NCBI RefSeq assembly: GCF_032714615.1
Contig: NZ_JAWDKA010000003.1
Location: forward strand, 124,001-188,000
Origin: Methanorbis furvi
GTDB lineage: Archaea; Halobacteriota; Methanomicrobia; Methanomicrobiales; Methanocorpusculaceae
DNA length: 64,000 bases
Reading direction: 5' to 3'
Under the pieces are notes generated by a model that saw only the letters and a program-made list of their open reading frames with translations, searched no databases and had not been told where the DNA came from. The position numbers and the translations under genes are program-made. Below, in pieces: positions 2,121 to 61,914 of this stretch (its first letter is position 1; the number at the start of each line of letters is the position of its first letter).

Positions 2121-4034
2121 ATGGAAAAGAAAATGGCAAGAGTGTTCGTTGACGGTGCTCTGTTCGGCAAAGTCGACGACGCAGTTGGTTTCACCAGAAA
2201 CTTCCGTCAGATGCGCCGGAACGGTCAGGTTCCGACCGAAGTCAACATCTCCTACAAAGATTACAGCAATGAAATCGTCATCAACACCGATCGCGGACGG
2301 GCACGCCGCCCGTTGATTGTGGTCGAGAACGGTCAGCCGGCCGTCACTCCTGATGACATCGAGAGAGTCCGCAGCGGCGAGTACGAGTTCATGAGTCTCG
2401 TTAGCCAGGGAAAGATCGAGTTCATCGACGCAGAAGAAGAGGACGACCTCTACATTGGTGTCTATGAAGACGACCTTACCCCTGATCACACCCACCTTGA
2501 GATCGACCCGTCTCTGATCCTTGGTATCGGAGCAGCACACGTTCCGTTCCCGGAACACAACGCATCTCCGCGTGTCACCATGGGTGCAGGTATGATCAAG
2601 CAGGCTCTCGGCTTTGCCCAGGCAAACATGAAACTGCGCCCCGATACCCGCGGCCACATGCTTCACTATGCCCAGGTCCCCATGGTCCACACCCAGGCAG
2701 CAGAGCTTATCGGTTCTGACACCCGCCCGCAGGGACAGAACTTCTGTGTTGCTATCATCTCCTACGAAGGCTACAACATTGAAGATGCACTCATCTTCAA
2801 CAAGGCATCTGTTGAGCGCGGCCTTGGCCGTTCCCACTTCTTCAGAACCTATGAAGGAGAAGAGCGCCGCTACCCGGGAGGACAGGTTGACAGAATCGAA
2901 GTCCCCGAAGATGATGTTCAGGGTTCCCACGGACCTGGCTCCTACGCAAACCTTGACACTGACGGTATCATCAATCCTGAAACCCGTGTCATGGAAAAGG
3001 ATGTTCTGATCGGCAAGACCTCGCCGCCGAGATTCCTTGAGGAACCGACCGGTGAACTCATTGCCGTCGAAAAGCGTCGCGACACCTCTATCACCATGCG
3101 CAGCAACGAGACCGGTATCGTTGACACCGTCATTGTCACCGAGTCTGAGAACTCCTCGCGCCTTGTCAAGGTCCGCACCCGCGACCTTCGTGTCCCTGAA
3201 ATCGGCGACAAGTTCGCATCCCGTCACGGACAGAAGGGTGTCTGCGGTCTGATCACTCCGCAGGAGAACATGCCCTTCACCGAAGCAGGCATTGCCCCTG
3301 ACCTTGTCATCAACCCGCATGCAGTTCCGTCGCGTATGACCATCGGCCATATGCTCGAGATGATCGGCGGCAAGACCGGATCCCTCATGGGTACCCGCGT
3401 AAACGCAACCTCGTTCCGCAGAAAGCCGGTTGAGCAGATCTTTGACAGTCCGTTCGCACAGAAGAGACTGCTTAATGACAAACAGATCGGAAAAGAGGTT
3501 ACCAACGACACCATCACCCGTGAACAGCTGCTCCGCCACGAGCTTGCACAGGCAGGATTTGCCCACACCGGCAGAGAAGTCATGTATGACGGTATCACCG
3601 GCCGCAGATTCCAGGCTGACATCTATATGGGCGTCATCTACTATCAGAAACTCTACCACATGGTATCCACCAAAATGCACGCACGGTCCCGCGGTCCGGT
3701 GCAGGTTTTAACCCGCCAGCCGACCGAAGGTCGTGCCCGTGAAGGAGGTCTTCGTTTCGGAGAAATGGAGCGTGATGTCATGATCGGACACGGAGCAGCA
3801 ATGGCCTTAAAGGAACGCCTGCTTGACGAGTCCGACGCAGTGAAGCAGTACGTCTGCGCACGCTGCGGAATGGTTGCAATGTATGATGCAAAGCAGAAGA
3901 CCACCCGCTGTCTTGCCTGCGGTGCAGAGACCGATATCTACGAAGTCGAGATGAGCTATGCATTCAAGCTGCTGCTTGATGAAATGAAGAGTATGGGAAT
4001 TGCGCCCAGACTGAAACTGGAGGATATGGTGTAA
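2121..4034 (+). CDS. rpoB1: RNA polymerase subunit B' (C-terminal half of beta)
   Basis: This is the B' subunit of archaeal RNA polymerase, 637 residues. It includes the hybrid-binding and clamp-connecting parts of the beta-type subunit. Clear motifs are GYNIEDA (catalytic centre contact), [11 protein letters not shown], and the end segment MIGHGAA with a C-terminal zinc ribbon CARCG...CLACG near residues 578-597. The gene starts directly after the rpoB2 stop, without spacing, so translational coupling is likely. The B''/B' split is the normal methanogen arrangement and not a frameshift. Confidence 0.96.
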
Positions 4035-4035
4035 C

Positions 4036-6708
4036 ATGACCAGCCCAAAGAGAATCGGAAAGATTGAGTTCGGTCTGCTCTCCCCAAAAGCGATCCGCGA
4101 CATGAGTGTCTGCAAGGTCATCTGGCCTGACACCTATGACGACGATGGATTCCCGTACCCGAAAGGTCTGATGGACCCGAGCCTCGGTGTCATCGACCCG
4201 GGTCTCCGCTGCAAAACATGCGGTCAGAAGCAGGGCGACTGTCCCGGCCACTTCGGCCACATTGATCTCGCAAAGCCGGTCATTCACGTCGGCTACACGA
4301 GACTCATCAGAAAACTTCTGCGTGTGACCTGCCGTGAGTGCGGTCGTCTCCTTCTTGACAAAGAAGAGATCGAACGGTTCAGTGCACTGGAAGACGATCC
4401 CTACTCTGCCGAAACCATCGGTGAGAAGGACATCAAAAAGGAGCGCGTCTGCCCGTACTGTGGTGACCAGCAGTTCAAGATCAACTTTGAGAAGCCGACG
4501 AGTTTCGTAGAAGTTGTCACCGAGACCGGTGAGGACGGCAAGGTTCACAAGACCGAGCACAAACTCACCTCCGCTGACATCCGCGAGCGTCTGGAAAAGA
4601 TCACCGACGACGACCTCCGTCTTCTCGGTATCGACCCAACCGTTGCCCGGCCGGAATGGACGATTCTTACCGTCCTTCCGGTTCCGCCGGTAACGGTCCG
4701 TCCGTCGATTATTCTTGAGAACGGTCAGCGGTCTGAAGATGACCTGACCCACAAGCTTGTTGATATCATCAGAATCAATCAGCGGTTCAAGGAAAATCAG
4801 GATGCAGGTGCTCCGCAGCTCATTATTGAGGATCTGTGGGAACTTCTGCAGTACCATGTCACGACATACCTCGACAACGAAGTTGCCGGATGTCCGCCTG
4901 CCCGCCACCGGTCGGGACGTCCCTTAAAGACGCTCTCCCAGAGACTGAAAGGAAAGGACGGCCGGTTCCGCGGTTCGCTGTCCGGTAAGCGTGTCAACTT
5001 CTCCTCACGTACGGTTATCTCGCCTGACCCGAACCTCTCCATCGGTGAGGTCGGTGTCCCCTTGGCAATCGCAAACGAGATGTCTGTTCCGGTCCGCGTA
5101 ACCAAACAGAACATCGAAGACATCAGGTCCATGATCCGGATCGGTCCAAACCGCCCGACCCTTCGTGACCCCTGCGGTGCAAACTATGTTAACCGTCCTG
5201 ACGGCAGACGTATTCGTTTGATCTCAGGAGTCGAAGGCAACTGTGACACCGTCGCAGAGATGATTGAGCCTGGATGGAAGATTGACCGCCAGCTTCGTGA
5301 CGGCGATATCGTTCTCTTCAACCGTCAGCCGTCTCTGCACAGAATGTCCATCATGTCCCATCACATCAAAGTGATGAACGGCAGAACATTCCGCTTAAAC
5401 CCGGCTGTGTGTCCCCCGTACAACGCAGACTTTGATGGTGATGAAATGAACCTGCACGTCCCGCAGACCGAAGAGGCGCGTGCGGAAGCAGAGCTTCTCG
5501 TTGCGGTTCAGGAAAACATTCTCTCACCAAGATTCGGCGGTCCGATCATCGGCGGTCTTCACGACCACATCTCCGGTATCTTCCTCCTCACCAATCAGAT
5601 GAAGTGGTACACCAAATCCCAGTTCCTCTATCTCCTGAAGTACACTCCAATGGAGCACCTTCCTGAGCCTGGCATGATCGGCGAGGACGGAACCCCGTAC
5701 TGGAGCAACAAGCAGGCATTCTCAATGATTCTGCCAACTGATGTCAATATGTTCTACAAGGCAACCTGTTGCCGTAACTGTGACCCGTGTACGAAGGACA
5801 CCCACTGTCCGCATGACGCATACGTCAGAATCGTGGACGGTCAGCTGCTTACCGGAACGATTGACAAAAAGTCTGTCGGAGCAATGGACGGTGCAATTCT
5901 GAACCGTATCATCCGCCTGCACGGCATGAAGCGTGCCCGTGAGTACATTGACGACTTAACGAAGCTCTCGATTCGTGCAATCATGATCAACGGTTTCTCG
6001 TACGGTATCAACGATACCGATCTCGGTAAAGAGGAGTACAAACAGATCCGTGATGTGCTTGACAAGGCAGAATCCGACGTGGCCCAGCGTATCAGCATCT
6101 ACGAACAGGGACATCTTGAGCCGATGCCGGGAAGAACCCAGGAAGAGACGCTTGAAATGCAGGTGATGAAGGAGCTCGGTAAGGCCCGTGACCGTACCGG
6201 AGAAATTGCATCCCGCCACTTAGGTTTTGAAAACTCTGCAGTGGTAATGGCAGTATCCGGTGCCCGTGGTTCCATGCTGAACATGGCACAGATGGCAGGT
6301 TGTATCGGTCAGCAGGCAGTGCGTGGTGAGCGTATCGTTCGTGGTTACGAGGACCGCACCCTGCCGCACTTCAAGCGCGGCGACAAGGGATCAGACGCAC
6401 ACGGATTCGTCCGCAACTCCTACAAGTCAGGTTTAACCCCGACCGAGTTCTTCTTCCATGCAATCGGAGGTCGTGAAGGTCTTGTGGATACTGCAGTCCG
6501 TACATCCCAGTCCGGTTACCTGCAGCGCCGTATGATCAACGCTCTGCAGGATCTGAAGGTCGCGTACGATGGAACTGTCCGCAGTACCGGAGGCAAGATC
6601 ATTCAGTTCAAGTATGGTGAGGATGGAACCGATCCGGCAAAGTCCGCATCCGGTCTGCCGGTCGATGTGAAAGGTATCGCCGAGTCAGTGTTAAAGGAGG
6701 CAGTGTAA
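4036..6708 (+). CDS. rpoA1: RNA polymerase subunit A' (catalytic, N-terminal part of beta')
   Basis: This is the A' subunit, 890 residues, carrying the catalytic metal site. The invariant NADFDGD motif is at residues 463-469, where D465, D467 and D469 bind Mg. N-terminal zinc motifs CKTCG...CPGHFGH and CRECG...CPYCG are present. A cysteine-rich insertion (C578, C579, C582, C585, C591) lies downstream of the active site. The bridge-helix region and [13 protein letters not shown] segment near 780 are intact. The gene is separated by one base from rpoB1 and one base from rpoA2, so it is part of the same operon. Confidence 0.96.
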
Positions 6709-6709
6709 A

Positions 6710-8305
6710 ATGGCGCCAAGAAAGAAGGCAGAAGAGCCGGCTGCATTCCCTGCACCGACCTTTATCGATGAAGACATCCCGATGGAACCGGTCGAGGAAA
6801 ATGAAGACCGGTTCGGCGACTCCCTTGAGGACGCAGTGATCAGTCAGTACGAGGCAGGCATCCCTGAGCCGGTCGAGGAGATCGAGGTTATTGAAGAGAT
6901 CGTCGAAGAAACCGATGAGTTTGAGGATGAGGACGACGAGGCAAAGTCAAGATCCAAAAAAGGAAAGAAAGCTGCTTCCGAGATCGAGGTTCCTGAGAGC
7001 AGTGTTGCAAAGATGCTGCGCGAGTGGAATCTGCCAAAGACTCTGTTTGATCAGATCCGCATCTGGCTTGAGGGTAAGACCCCTGAGGAGATGGAGTTAG
7101 TCAACCTTGACCGGCTGAAGAGCCGTGTCCGCCGTCTGGTTGACGAGGACATGCCGGTCTCTACCACAACTGAGCTTACCAAGATTCTGATCGCCAAAAA
7201 TGACTCCGGACGTGATGTGACTGATGAACAGTTTGAGGAGATCGTTTCGCGTATCAATCAGGAGTACAACCGCACACGTGTGCAGCCGTGCGAAGCTGTG
7301 GGAATCAATGCAGCCCACTCGATTGGTGAGCCCGGCACTCAGATGACGATGCGTACCTTCCACTACGCCGGTGTCGCTGAAATTAACGTTACGTTAGGTC
7401 TGCCGCGTCTTATCGAGATCATGGACGCACGAAAAGAGCCGTCCACGCCGACCATGACGATCTTCCTTGAGGAAGGCTATCGCGAGGACCGTGACAAGGC
7501 ACGTGAAGTGTCCTGGAAGATTGAGGCAGCTCCACTTCACGAGTTCGGCGATATCGAGACTGATATTGCTGATATGTGTGTGGTTGTACAGATCAACCGC
7601 GAGGTGTGCAAGAAGAGAAAGATCTCGGTTGCCGAGATTTTGGAGCGTGCCCCGCAGAAGATCAAGGACAAGCGCCACTACCGTGACTTTGAGGTCGAGA
7701 TCGATGACAAGGATGGTATTCTCCGGTTCCTGCCAAAGAACGAGGAGTCATACCAGAACCTGTTCCAGCTGGCAGAGCATGTTCGTCAGGTAATCGTGCA
7801 GGGTATTGATGATATCCGCCGTGTTGTGGTCAGAAAGGAGAATGATGAGTACATTCTCCACACGGAAGGCTCCAACTTAAAGGATGTCTTTGAGATCGAT
7901 GGTGTTGACTGCACCAGAACAAGGACCAACAACATCGCTGAGATTGCCGGAACTCTGGGTATTGAAGCGGCACGGTCTGCTATCATCTATGAAGCGTTCT
8001 CGACGCTGAAGGAACAGGGTATCTCGGTCGATCTCCGTCACATCATGCTGGTTGCAGATATTATGTGCATGGACGGCGAGGTCAAACAGATCGGTCGTCA
8101 CGGTATTGCCGGTGAGAAGGAGTCGGTCCTTTCCCGTGCATCTTTTGAGGTGACGGTCAATCACTTGCTGGATGCCGCGGTCGCTCACGAGTTCGATGAG
8201 CTGTCCGGTGTTACCGAGAACGTCATCGTCGGTCAGCCGATTCTGCTCGGTACCGGCGACGTGAAGCTGATGGTCCGCCGGGTTGACCCGACGAAATCAG
8301 CATAA
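6710..8305 (+). CDS. rpoA2: RNA polymerase subunit A'' with acidic N-terminal extension
   Basis: This is the A'' subunit, the C-terminal part of the beta'-type subunit. It contributes the trigger-loop/jaw region, seen as [20 protein letters not shown] and [11 protein letters not shown], and the cleft end with [19 protein letters not shown]. The protein is 531 residues, longer than the roughly 380-430 usual for A''. The extra length is mostly an acidic, low-complexity N-terminus (residues 1-95) rich in E, D and P, followed by a short basic patch (SRSKKGKK). Family-like sequence begins near residue 97. The ATG lies one base after the rpoA1 stop and is preceded by AAGGAGG within rpoA1, so the long form is very likely translated. 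Confidence 0.95.
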
Positions 8306-58046: not shown

Positions 58047-58478
58047 TTATTCGACGACGATTTCAACAAGCGTTACGGTAAAGATCAGATCTTTTCCTGA
58101 GAGGTGATGGTTGGCATCAAGGGTCACGGTCTCTTCGTCGATCTGAGTGATGGTAACCGGAATCTGGTTGCCGTCGCCAAGCTGGATCAACAGCTGTTCA
58201 CCGACGTTTGCCGTGAAGTCCGGCCCAAACTCTTTGCGGGGAATTGCCACCATCATATCATCAGACTTTTCGCCGTAGGCATCCTTTGCCGGAATCTCAA
58301 GAACACGGGTCTCGCCGATCGCCATGCCGATTACGCCGTTGTCAAAGCCGGGGATTACCATGCCGCTGCCGACATGGAACTCGAGCGGGTCGCGGCCCTC
58401 GGAGGAGTCGAACTGGGTGCCGTCAGTGAGTTTTCCGGTATAGTGGACACGGATCGTGTCGCCGCATTGTACAGACAT
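58047..58478 (-). CDS. FKBP-type peptidyl-prolyl isomerase (cytoplasmic)
   Basis: This is a 143-residue SlyD-like FKBP. The FK506-binding core (VHYTGKLTDGTQFDSSEGRDP, GSGMVIPGFDNGVIGM in parts) encloses an IF-type insert with VNVGEQLLIQLGDG-like NVGEQLLI. No signal sequence. It lies upstream of the AKR gene on the same strand. A paralogous lipoprotein follows next to it. Confidence 0.92.
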   Translation of the reverse strand: MSVQCGDTIRVHYTGKLTDGTQFDSSEGRDPLEFHVGSGMVIPGFDNGVIGMAIGETRVLEIPAKDAYGEKSDDMMVAIPRKEFGPDFTANVGEQLLIQLGDGNQIPVTITQIDEETVTLDANHHLSGKDLIFTVTLVEIVVE

Positions 58479-58532: not shown

Positions 58533-59078
58533 TTATGTGGTTTGTGTGCCGATCGAGTCGAGAGTTATCTCAAAGGTCAGCGTTTTTCCTGCAAGAGGAG
58601 GATTTATGACGACGCGGGTCATGTTGCTTTCATTGTCAATGATCACGACCTCTCCCAGTACCACCTGAATTGCACCGGTTGAGTAATCGTACATCAGGAA
58701 CGTGGATCCAATATCAATAGGCCCTTGATTGTAACCCTCTGCCAGGGAAATTGGAACATCAGCATACGTATTGTAGCTGTACTGACCATATGCCAGATCA
58801 GGCGTCAGCGTAACCGTCTTCGTCTCTCCTGGCTTCATTCCAAGAACCGCATCATCAAAGCCTTTGACAACCTGACCGGTGCCGAGAACAAAACTCAGCG
58901 GAGTACCGTTCACATTTGTCTGATACACAGTCCCATCCTCAAGCGTCAGGGTGTAAAAAACATTCACCGTATCATTGACCTTTGCCGTCTGATCGACCGT
59001 GCCAATGCATCCGGCAGAAAAAATCACCAGACACAGGGCGACAGCTGCGAACAGAATACCAACTATTTTCTGATTCAT
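58533..59078 (-). CDS. FKBP-type peptidyl-prolyl isomerase, secreted lipoprotein
   Basis: This is a 181-residue FKBP with a lipoprotein signal (VIFSAGC) that would place it outside the membrane. The FKBP core is seen in VNVFYTLTLEDGTVYQT and GTGQVVKGFDDAVLGMKPGE. It lies just upstream of the cytoplasmic FKBP gene (54 bases). A 16-base palindrome, GTAAAATATATTTTAC, directly precedes its ATG. Confidence 0.9.
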   Translation of the reverse strand: MNQKIVGILFAAVALCLVIFSAGCIGTVDQTAKVNDTVNVFYTLTLEDGTVYQTNVNGTPLSFVLGTGQVVKGFDDAVLGMKPGETKTVTLTPDLAYGQYSYNTYADVPISLAEGYNQGPIDIGSTFLMYDYSTGAIQVVLGEVVIIDNESNMTRVVINPPLAGKTLTFEITLDSIGTQTT

Positions 59079-59114: not shown

Positions 59115-60248
59115 TTAGTTAATGCAGACAGGATTTGCAACATCCAGCAGCACATCCTGTGCCTGCGTTCGAAGCGAAACAGCCGCAACCGCGCCAATAA
59201 CTCCGCTGCCGCCAAATGTCCAGACATTGTACTCCTTCGCAGTTGCGAGAACCTCATCAAGTGTTACGCGCTCAGATCTGATACGCGCCCCAAGAGACAG
59301 CAATGCTTTGGGAACACCAATACCTGTGGCAACTGCGACTCCCCAGTTTGCTGAAACACTCTCCTCCTCAACAAACCGGCACACCTTTGCTGAAAGTCCT
59401 GCGACCGCCTCAGGAAGTACGGCAAGTTCGAGGAAACTGCATGAGTTCCCGGCGGTTTTCTCCGCAATATCCTGACAGAGCACCGCCACCTGATGCCGGA
59501 TACCGATCACCTCATTACCGTCCGAGAGATACTTCATCAACGCCTGCGACAGCGCAAACGTCGCACCCCCGCATCCTTTCCGGTCCGTATCATCAATACC
59601 AACCGTCACCGATACCAGCGCTTTTGTCTTCACCTCACCGCTCATAACCCCGTCCGCTGAAGAAATCGACACGCCGCACACTCCCTTCGCCTGCCCCATC
59701 ATCGAGGACAACGAGTATGCAGGCCCGCCGTAGACCGACCGAATCGTCTGCACAACGGTATCCCCCTCGCGGCGGACACCGGCAAGACCAACAGCTGCAC
59801 AGCTTAAGTCAGGCTCAGCAGCAGGCCCCACCTTCGCAAGCTCGCGAAACAGCATTCCGTCACGGCTTACCGAGAGCGCAGCACCGCCGGCACGCCGGTG
59901 ATGAAACTCGCAGAACCCTGCACACCCGCTGCTCAGACACTCATGAAAAATCTCGACCATGTCGCCGTCAGCAGTTGTAAAAATGCGGTTGCAGGTCGTT
60001 GACGGCATCGCACTCCGCGAAGCATACCGTGCAGGATGTCTGCCGTGCTTCTCCTCCTTCGTAAAAATGCAGCCTTCGCGAAGCAGACGGTTGATCCAGT
60101 CCTGAGCGGTGGATCTTGGAACAGCCGTAGCATCCGCAAGTTCGGCAGTAGTAAAGTGACCGGACTCAAAAGTCATCTGGCGCACGGCCTGGAGAAACTG
60201 GCCGCGCCTGCCTAAAACTCCTCCGGGATTTTTCTCACTTGTCGCCAT
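59115..60248 (-). CDS. HTH plus DDTD-motif protein (TiaS/marker 11-like)
   Basis: This is a 377-residue protein with two parts. Residues 30-75 look like a winged helix (FTTAELADATAVPRSTAQDWINRL in parts), suggesting DNA binding. A middle part has cysteines and histidines (C104, C109, C113, H116, H117). The C-terminal half has VGIDDTDRKGCGGATFALSQ (217-236), like the ATP-binding motif of TiaS (tRNA agmatidine synthetase) and of methanogenesis marker 11. The function is not known. It overlaps hom by 14 bases, so a regulatory role in the aspartate-derived pathway is possible but only inferred. Confidence 0.7.
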   Translation of the reverse strand: MATSEKNPGGVLGRRGQFLQAVRQMTFESGHFTTAELADATAVPRSTAQDWINRLLREGCIFTKEEKHGRHPARYASRSAMPSTTCNRIFTTADGDMVEIFHECLSSGCAGFCEFHHRRAGGAALSVSRDGMLFRELAKVGPAAEPDLSCAAVGLAGVRREGDTVVQTIRSVYGGPAYSLSSMMGQAKGVCGVSISSADGVMSGEVKTKALVSVTVGIDDTDRKGCGGATFALSQALMKYLSDGNEVIGIRHQVAVLCQDIAEKTAGNSCSFLELAVLPEAVAGLSAKVCRFVEEESVSANWGVAVATGIGVPKALLSLGARIRSERVTLDEVLATAKEYNVWTFGGSGVIGAVAAVSLRTQAQDVLLDVANPVCIN

Positions 60249-61233
60249 ATCGTTCCTTTAATGCAATCAGATCCGCAAGAACAGCGCTTGCCGTCTCAAC
60301 CGAACCGGCCCCTCTGCCGATGAACGTGACAGGACCCGCAAGTTCGGTATCCACCGTCACCGCATTGAGTGTTCCGTCAACCACCAGCGGATGTTCTTTA
60401 TGAATCAGACGCGGCGACACCTCCAGCTGCCGCTTGTCAGGATGAATGGATGCTATAAGCCGGATCGTATGACCGGTCTTTCCAGCCATCATCAGAGCAT
60501 CGGCGGTCATGCCGTCAATACCGACGCGAACAACTTCGTCCAGCGTCACATTCATGCCGAGCATCGTATTTGCAAGAATCACGAGCTTGATCGCCGCATC
60601 GGTTCCGTTCACGTCCGCACTCGGGTCAGCCTCCGCGTATCCTAAGTCGCTTGCTTCCAGAAGAGCCTGCTGATAGGTCAGACCCTCCTCCTCCATTCTT
60701 GTAAGAATGTAGTTGCAGGTTCCATTCAATACACCAAACAGTGCGTTCACGCGGTTGCCTGCAAGACCGTGACGAAGACCGTTCATGATCGGCACCGCTC
60801 CAGCAACCGTTCCCTCAAACATCAGTCCTGCGTTATGCTCCTTTGCAACTGCGGAGAGTTCAGGGTACGCGATTGAGATCGGCCCTTTGTTGGAGGTCAC
60901 CACATGTTTGCCGCGCATCAGGGCAGCGCGGATGTTGGAGAGAGCAGGCTCGCCGGTCTGGGCATTCGTCGGCGACACCTCAACCAAAATATCGTACTCA
61001 GCCTCGCGGACAATTCTCTCAGCAGACCATGCAGAGTCTCCGCATTTGCCGGTTGCATTCTTGCGGGCAAAAACCTCGCACATGTCAAGAGTGGCACCAA
61101 GAGGAGCAACCGCACCGCTCTTTGAGTCAGCAGCAGCGGTTATCACAAACCCGTACTCAGGATTTGCAAGAACTTTTGCCACACCGCGTCCGACCGAGCC
61201 GAGACCAAGAAGAGCAATCCGCATCGGTTTCAT
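60235..61233 (-). CDS. hom: Homoserine dehydrogenase
   Basis: This is homoserine dehydrogenase, 332 residues, reducing aspartate semialdehyde to homoserine for threonine and methionine. The Rossmann start RIALLGLGSVGRGVAKVL and catalytic regions VVTSNKGPISIAYPEL and ILTRMEEEGLTYQQALLEASDLGYAEADPSADVNG (in parts) are intact. ATG 61233 has GGAGG six bases upstream and overlaps the ACT gene stop by four bases. It lacks an ACT domain of its own; the separate upstream gene provides one. Confidence 0.95.
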   Translation of the reverse strand: MKPMRIALLGLGSVGRGVAKVLANPEYGFVITAAADSKSGAVAPLGATLDMCEVFARKNATGKCGDSAWSAERIVREAEYDILVEVSPTNAQTGEPALSNIRAALMRGKHVVTSNKGPISIAYPELSAVAKEHNAGLMFEGTVAGAVPIMNGLRHGLAGNRVNALFGVLNGTCNYILTRMEEEGLTYQQALLEASDLGYAEADPSADVNGTDAAIKLVILANTMLGMNVTLDEVVRVGIDGMTADALMMAGKTGHTIRLIASIHPDKRQLEVSPRLIHKEHPLVVDGTLNAVTVDTELAGPVTFIGRGAGSVETASAVLADLIALKERYGDK

Positions 61234-61733
61234 GCAAGGCCTCCCTCTTCATCAATGATCAAGAGATGCTTTTCTTCAGCAATCTTCACAAGAATTTCGC
61301 ATGCCTGATCCATCTCGGCAGAACCTGCGGCCTTAATGGTCAGTTTTGCGGTGGACGGCTGTGTGATTCCAGGCATTACCATGTGAAGCTCGGTTACCTC
61401 GGCAACATTTGCTTTATCGATTCTATTGATGGTATCCGTTAAATCGGTGTGCAGAATGTGGCCGATTAAAATAAATGTCTTGGTACAGGTCAGATGATCA
61501 GTTCCGATGCGGATGATCTCAATGCCGTTTGATCGCAGCGCGCTCTCCAGCTGACCGAGGCGGTTCTGTGGAAGCGTGACTACAATATCCACAATCAGTG
61601 TTCCATCGCCTGCAGCGGCATCGCGCTGATGCATAATTGAGATAATATTTGCGCCACTGTCGGAAACCGGTTTAATTGCAGCAAGAAGCTGTCCCGGCTT
61701 GTCGCTCAGTTCAAGTTTGAGTGATATCTGCAC
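61230..61733 (-). CDS. ACT-domain regulator for homoserine dehydrogenase
   Basis: This is a 167-residue protein of two ACT-type stretches, the first being LELSDKPGQLLAAIKPVSDSGANI. It is the usual partner upstream of hom in Methanomicrobiales and probably makes the enzyme amino-acid sensitive. The start is GTG 61733. Confidence 0.85.
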   Translation of the reverse strand: MQISLKLELSDKPGQLLAAIKPVSDSGANIISIMHQRDAAAGDGTLIVDIVVTLPQNRLGQLESALRSNGIEIIRIGTDHLTCTKTFILIGHILHTDLTDTINRIDKANVAEVTELHMVMPGITQPSTAKLTIKAAGSAEMDQACEILVKIAEEKHLLIIDEEGGLA

Positions 61734-61867
61734 CGTATCCCTTCACCATACTTATCAGTCACACATCCATTTTAATGTGGGGTTTTCCTGCACTTTGTGT
61801 AATATTTTTGAGTCTCCCGCGGATGCAGAAAATATTAGAGTGGGAGTTACGCGATGGCAAATATTTC

Positions 61868-61912
61868 AAAACGCGAATCGCATGCCTGCGGCCTGCTTAC
61901 CGCTTCGCGTTT
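61868..61912. repeat. Minimal family B repeat with GCATGCC module
   Basis: This 45-base piece has ends AAACGCGAA and TTCGCGTTT, with CGCATGCCTGCGGCC and GCTTACCGC between them. It is the simplest form of the module found in the other repeats. It lies just before the DUF92 gene end. Confidence 0.7.
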
Positions 61913-61914
61913 CA

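Follow-up and report, generated by a model that had tools for sequence, protein, structure and literature searches.

A conserved archaeal protein encoded behind homoserine dehydrogenase joins a predicted winged helix to a TiaS-type kinase-fold domain and is most likely a fused regulator-enzyme

The third gene of an ACT-hom operon in Methanorbis furvi encodes a protein, here called the HTH-DDTD protein, that is real, conserved and, in the searchable literature, apparently undescribed, and that most likely represents a new version of a fused regulator-enzyme. The gene lies in a 64,000-nucleotide stretch of genomic DNA, referred to below as the window. We propose, with a probability of roughly one in two, that the protein locally regulates transcription of the ACT-hom operon, and with it the homoserine/threonine branch, and that it is gated by a nucleotide-using domain. 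DNA binding set by such a domain is suggested because the recognition helix and the kinase-fold active site are both conserved in a protein that is locked behind hom. The confident winged helix, the regulators among its nearest folds, the linkage to hom and the presence of the gene in nearly all sampled members of the order fit this proposal.

ORF calls placed three minus-strand genes between positions 59115 and 61733 of the window, in the order ACT, hom and gene 3. The first (61230..61733, minus strand) begins with GTG and carries a weak ACT match over residues 4-68 (Pfam 23.6 bits, cut-off 27). Judged by its profile match, the second (60235..61233, minus strand) is unambiguously a homoserine dehydrogenase (NCBIfam PRK06270, 413 bits, cut-off 373). 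The third (59115..60248, minus strand) is a 377-residue ORF in which family matches and an AlphaFold2 (AF2) model place a winged helix ahead of a unit resembling methanogenesis marker 11 (Mmp11). The ACT and hom genes overlap by 4 nt and hom and gene 3 by 14 nt, the latter bearing out the original prediction that gene 3 starts within hom. The intergenic region 5' of ACT (61734..61914, minus strand) is the presumed promoter from the ORF layout. Just 3' of gene 3 lie two tandem ORFs (58047-58478 and 58533-59078) that by eye resemble FKBP-type peptidyl-prolyl isomerases, one of them with a lipoprotein-like start.

The distribution of the family was analyzed in 295 genomes of the window's phylum that were 90% complete or more, 75 of them from the window's order and 220 from elsewhere. 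Within the order, 74 of 75 genomes contained a match to essentially the whole 371-position model at 498 bits or more, and because of this conservation the feature is more than chance. The one member without the gene, G223, has kept ACT and hom. Outside the order, matches bearing the winged helix were found in only 6 of 220 genomes (two of lineage f18 and four of lineage f14; 355-427 bits), and the next best match, at 135 bits, began at model position 80 and thus had no winged helix. A search for plasmid copies gave no match among 72,556 records. In the 80 named loci, whose record titles almost all name Methanomicrobiales or its families, the predicted operon order ACT-hom-HTH/DDTD was found in 75. 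Co-occurrence with hom, which had been suggested as a check, was even more widespread: hom stood directly 5' of the HTH-DDTD gene in 78 loci (75 with ACT and three cut by a contig end), and in the remaining two the contig ended first, 0 and 254 nt upstream. A locus titled 'Clostridia bacterium' (L049) holds the archaeal operon at 62% identity and is probably a mis-binned contig. In a 74%-complete genome (G016:C20:869-2622), stop codons and frame changes disrupt both hom and the HTH-DDTD gene, and in two f24 loci (L169 and L170) ACT-hom is followed by a conserved ORF of ~170 aa in place of the HTH-DDTD gene.

Linkage to hom could also be that of a frozen operon, in which case the protein would regulate or act on an unrelated target such as an Mmp11 process linked to methanogenesis. 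The four f14 genomes are consistent with such a history, since they keep the HTH-DDTD gene away from hom and have ACT-hom elsewhere in the genome; in several lineages, moreover, the partner of an Mmp11-type protein is a radical SAM protein. However, the linkage persists in many of the order's families and also in f18, whose cluster differs in its upstream gene (hisD-ACT-hom-HTH/DDTD, with hisD assigned by eye), and we consider a merely historical association improbable. The uncoupling of the gene from hom in two lineages, f14 by separation and G223 by absence of the gene, nevertheless counts against a regulator of this operon.

We analyzed the architecture of the protein with an AF2 model built on 53 aligned orthologs (pLDDT 90.5, pTM 0.77). 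The model consists of a winged helix (residues 11-77), two beta-beta-alpha-beta-beta repeats (86-210) and an alpha/beta domain (211-373). The winged helix (60018..60218, minus strand) comprises helices 11-29, 34-41 and 45-58 and strands 61-65 and 74-77, of which helix 45-58 is the recognition helix (PRSTxQDW) and residues 61-77 form the wing; mean pLDDT was 84-96 per ten-residue block. Pfam winged-helix matches at about residues 14-76 were all sub-threshold (TrmB E=2.5e-4, HTH_23 6e-4, MarR_2 3e-3); the window protein scored 21.2 bits against a cut-off of 25.6 for TrmB and 18.2 against 27 for MarR_2, which counts against a regulator, whereas the f18 relative L122 exceeded both cut-offs (26.8 and 27.1). 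Despite these low profile scores, structure prediction returned the N-terminal winged helix that had been claimed, with high confidence, and winged-helix regulators predominated among the nearest solved folds to residues 7-81 (Z up to 10.7). Among archaeal and bacterial regulators of this kind, it superposes on IdeR (Z 10.7) and RbkR (Z 8.7). As modelled, the protein thus has the fold of TrmB/MarR-type regulators, and the domain would be expected to bind DNA.

Motif conservation was compared in 59 family members, made up of the 53 rows of alignment A2, four f14 proteins and two f18 proteins. The recognition-helix motif PRST.QDW..R was present in 58 of 59, among them members of both lineages from outside the order; of the 27 DDTD proteins compared that have no winged helix, 0 carried it. 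The C-terminal motifs DDTD, GATF and T.GN and the residue aligned with T230 were each found in 59 of 59. Because the recognition helix, DDTD, T.GN and the T230 position are retained to this extent, both the DNA-binding head and the kinase-fold active site look intact across the family.

The middle domain (residues 86-210; 59619..59993, minus strand) was also modelled alone, with a pLDDT of 91.4 and a pTM of 0.85. No solved relative was found in the PDB (Foldseek best E 0.1; VIA-align best Z 5.7), a result that does not by itself prove the fold to be new. It carries H102, C104, C113, H116 and H117, conserved in 53 of 53 A2 rows, and C109, conserved in 50 of 53. The six rows from outside the order have retained H-x-C-x4-C-x3-C and lost the H-H pair, and the C..FC part is present in 56 of the 59 family members. 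The residues of this patch suggest possible metal or redox binding.

The C-terminal domain (residues 211-373; 59130..59618, minus strand) contains GIDDTD (217-222), T230, T.GN (265-268) and G.GVIGA (347-353). Its Pfam TiaS_TCKD match was weak, and the TiaS profile NF040849 gave E=1.7e-8 but only 33.5 bits against a cut-off of 600. The modelled domain superposes on TiaS 3amt with a Z of 19.5 (2.1 A over 153 residues) and shares with the TiaS structures 3amt, 4rvz and 3u02 the fold, GIDDTD, KT.GN and G.G.IGA.AA motifs and the Thr18 equivalent, T230 aligning with T18 of Pyrococcus and Archaeoglobus TiaS. We take Thr18 of TiaS to have a role in the kinase domain, reflected in the Pfam name TCKD (Thr18-Cyt34 kinase domain). 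Furthermore, residues 89-363 match the Mmp11 profile TIGR03280 collinearly (model positions 5-286 of 292, E=5.8e-28). These matches uphold the assignment of a TiaS/marker-11-like GIDDTD domain and its union with a DNA-binding-type module, the latter as predicted by profile, model and fold matches. A view of the Cys/His-rich middle as one imported module and of the DDTD domain as another did not hold: both are present, but as parts of one Mmp11-like unit.

Although the homology to Mmp11 is nearly full-length, the HTH-DDTD protein scores 97.9 bits, far below the TIGR03280 cut-off of 255.8, has an additional winged helix and is separate in the tree. All four types of protein are encoded in the window genome: the HTH-DDTD protein, TiaS, a true Mmp11 (312 bits) and the second paralog, which scores 211 bits. 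In a tree of 48 rows, the 26 Mmp11-type rows without a winged helix (true Mmp11 and the second paralog) were set off by a 98/96 branch, and the 21 winged-helix rows fell outside, next to the very long TiaS branch; the support of their own branch was only 79/92, so that their unity relative to TiaS is moderately supported. By these comparisons the HTH-DDTD protein belongs to a distinct, winged-helix-bearing group and is not Mmp11.

The TiaS-like fold and profile match could also be expected of a TiaS-related enzyme that modifies tRNA or other RNA and uses its winged helix to bind RNA. But the window genome has a complete TiaS of its own, with TCKD, FLD and zinc ribbon, while the HTH-DDTD protein has the TCKD part only, together with its winged helix and Cys/His middle domain; a Pfam scan at E<=1 found neither FLD nor zinc ribbon in it. 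A tRNA role is unlikely because of the separate TiaS and the missing domains. Moreover, the protein stands apart from both TiaS and the other DDTD proteins in the tree, and judged by tree and fold matches no known tRNA enzyme activity attaches to its branch. We regard an RNA-modifying role as very unlikely.

A tentative alternative is that the protein is primarily an enzyme. It would then have an ATP-dependent, Mmp11-clade activity of the small-molecule or protein kinase or ligase type that serves the homoserine/threonine branch or a pathway linked to it, and its winged helix would be an addition of secondary importance, for regulation or scaffolding (RbkR-like, but enzyme first). Its TCKD motifs are retained, the Cys patch is conserved (as seen for C104 and C..FC), and hom also has a DDTD-family neighbor that lacks a winged helix, in the L124 operon of ACT, hom, a radical SAM gene and Mmp11. 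On the other hand, conservation of the recognition helix equals that of the active site, and no gap in the pathway was seen: although GHMP thrB was over cut-off in 0 of 41 genomes of the order, TIGR02535, itself only a proposed homoserine kinase, was over cut-off in 41 of 41. A missing homoserine kinase was accordingly rejected as a need that the protein might fill.

In the regulatory mechanism that we favor, the N-terminal winged helix would bind DNA, with the ACT-hom promoter as its presumed target, and the TiaS-type domain, together with the middle domain, would bind a nucleotide (ATP or similar) and probably also a pathway-related small molecule or protein site as effector. The kinase-fold domain may phosphorylate something, possibly itself at T230, and the ligand or phosphorylation state would alter DNA binding and hence hom expression, as in RbkR. 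The RbkR gene adjoins genes of its own pathway. RbkR, too, carries a winged helix ahead of an enzymatic domain that uses a nucleotide (PDB 5trd, 3cta), a likeness of architecture only, as nucleotide use by the HTH-DDTD protein is predicted; the RbkR winged helix superposes on residues 13-80 (2.0 A over 65 residues). The title of PDB entry 5trd gives RbkR as a riboflavin kinase with a winged helix, complexed with CTP and operator, and an excerpt of PMC8305020 calls it 'bifunctional as gene regulator and enzyme'. The two differ in that the RbkR enzyme domain is a CTP-dependent riboflavin kinase of another fold, and no riboflavin kinase domain was found in the HTH-DDTD protein in a Pfam scan at E<=1. 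The combination of modules had been called unusual, a judgment that is tempered by RbkR, an archaeal winged helix fused to a nucleotide-using enzyme. An excerpt of PMC11938285 states that TiaS acts as a kinase on both RNA and protein. In a bolder and rather unlikely version of the favored mechanism, the protein would represent a new class of archaeal transcription factors that recruited an RNA/protein kinase domain of the TiaS type as their sensor. What toggles the winged helix at the ACT-hom promoter would then be autophosphorylation of T230, or phosphorylation of a ligand that is related to homoserine or threonine and sits in the Cys/His middle domain.

The regions upstream of ACT were searched for an operator. 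Across 74 loci there was no excess of palindromes (mean best inverted-repeat score 5.56, versus 5.44 in shuffles), and the window's own upstream region, with CACAT-N8-ATGTG around a TTAAAA-type stretch, scored 5.0 versus 5.1 in shuffles. A conserved element, AAAAGRCTTATC, was found in 32 of 74 ACT upstream regions at -45 to -51 of ACT, the position expected for a BRE/TATA box, and in none of 10 searched genomes of the window's own genus. The lack of a shared palindromic operator in these regions and the BRE/TATA position of the conserved element count against a regulator. The 15-mer TAAAAGRCTTATCWT occurred three times in 31 genomes, each time at the ACT promoter. The 12-mer of the AAAAGRCTTATC element gave 52 matches in 70 genomes, of which 15 lay at the ACT promoter, 27 at other places and 10 in genomes without gene positions, compared to 45 for a reversed-pattern control (summed by hand from the table), and there was therefore no sign of a wider regulon. 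Because f14 ACT promoters carry a AATAAACTTATAT-type sequence at about the same distance, AAAAGRCTTATC is probably a conserved core promoter; as an operator it was rejected on its position, this f14 counterpart and the lack of a regulon signal.

In the open-licence literature, we found no description of a winged helix joined to an Mmp11-like unit. Searches that included methanogenesis marker, COG1571, TIGR03280, arCOG01115 and DUF1743 found no described function of Mmp11 in the excerpts returned; one paper found under Mmp11 and methanogenesis marker concerns, in its excerpt, Mmp10 and SufBC, and another source is a 2007 list. Literature listings held nothing relevant on hom/ACT regulators in methanogens. 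Little is said in the searchable literature about how methanogens regulate their aspartate-family amino acids. A protein that is present in 74 of 75 sampled order members, and whose recognition helix and active site are both conserved, gives a direct handle on this regulation, as well as a way into the function of Mmp11. If the kinase domain is indeed the sensor, the principle of RbkR would extend to a second enzyme fold.

We also observed recurrent neighbors of Mmp11-type genes. In the window genome, tandem Mmp11 and Mmp11-paralog genes are followed by a radical SAM gene (G000:C1:163365-165114). In another lineage, hom is linked to Mmp11 itself: the operon in L124 (G079, 3860-7420) runs ACT, hom, radical SAM (TIGR04043, 330.9 bits) and true Mmp11 (344.6 bits). 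Mmp11-type genes adjoin a TIGR04043-like radical SAM gene in eight loci (L124, L125, L179-L182, L191 and L192), a weaker radical SAM match in L031, L187 and L193, and an indolepyruvate oxidoreductase alpha-like gene in L183 and L190.
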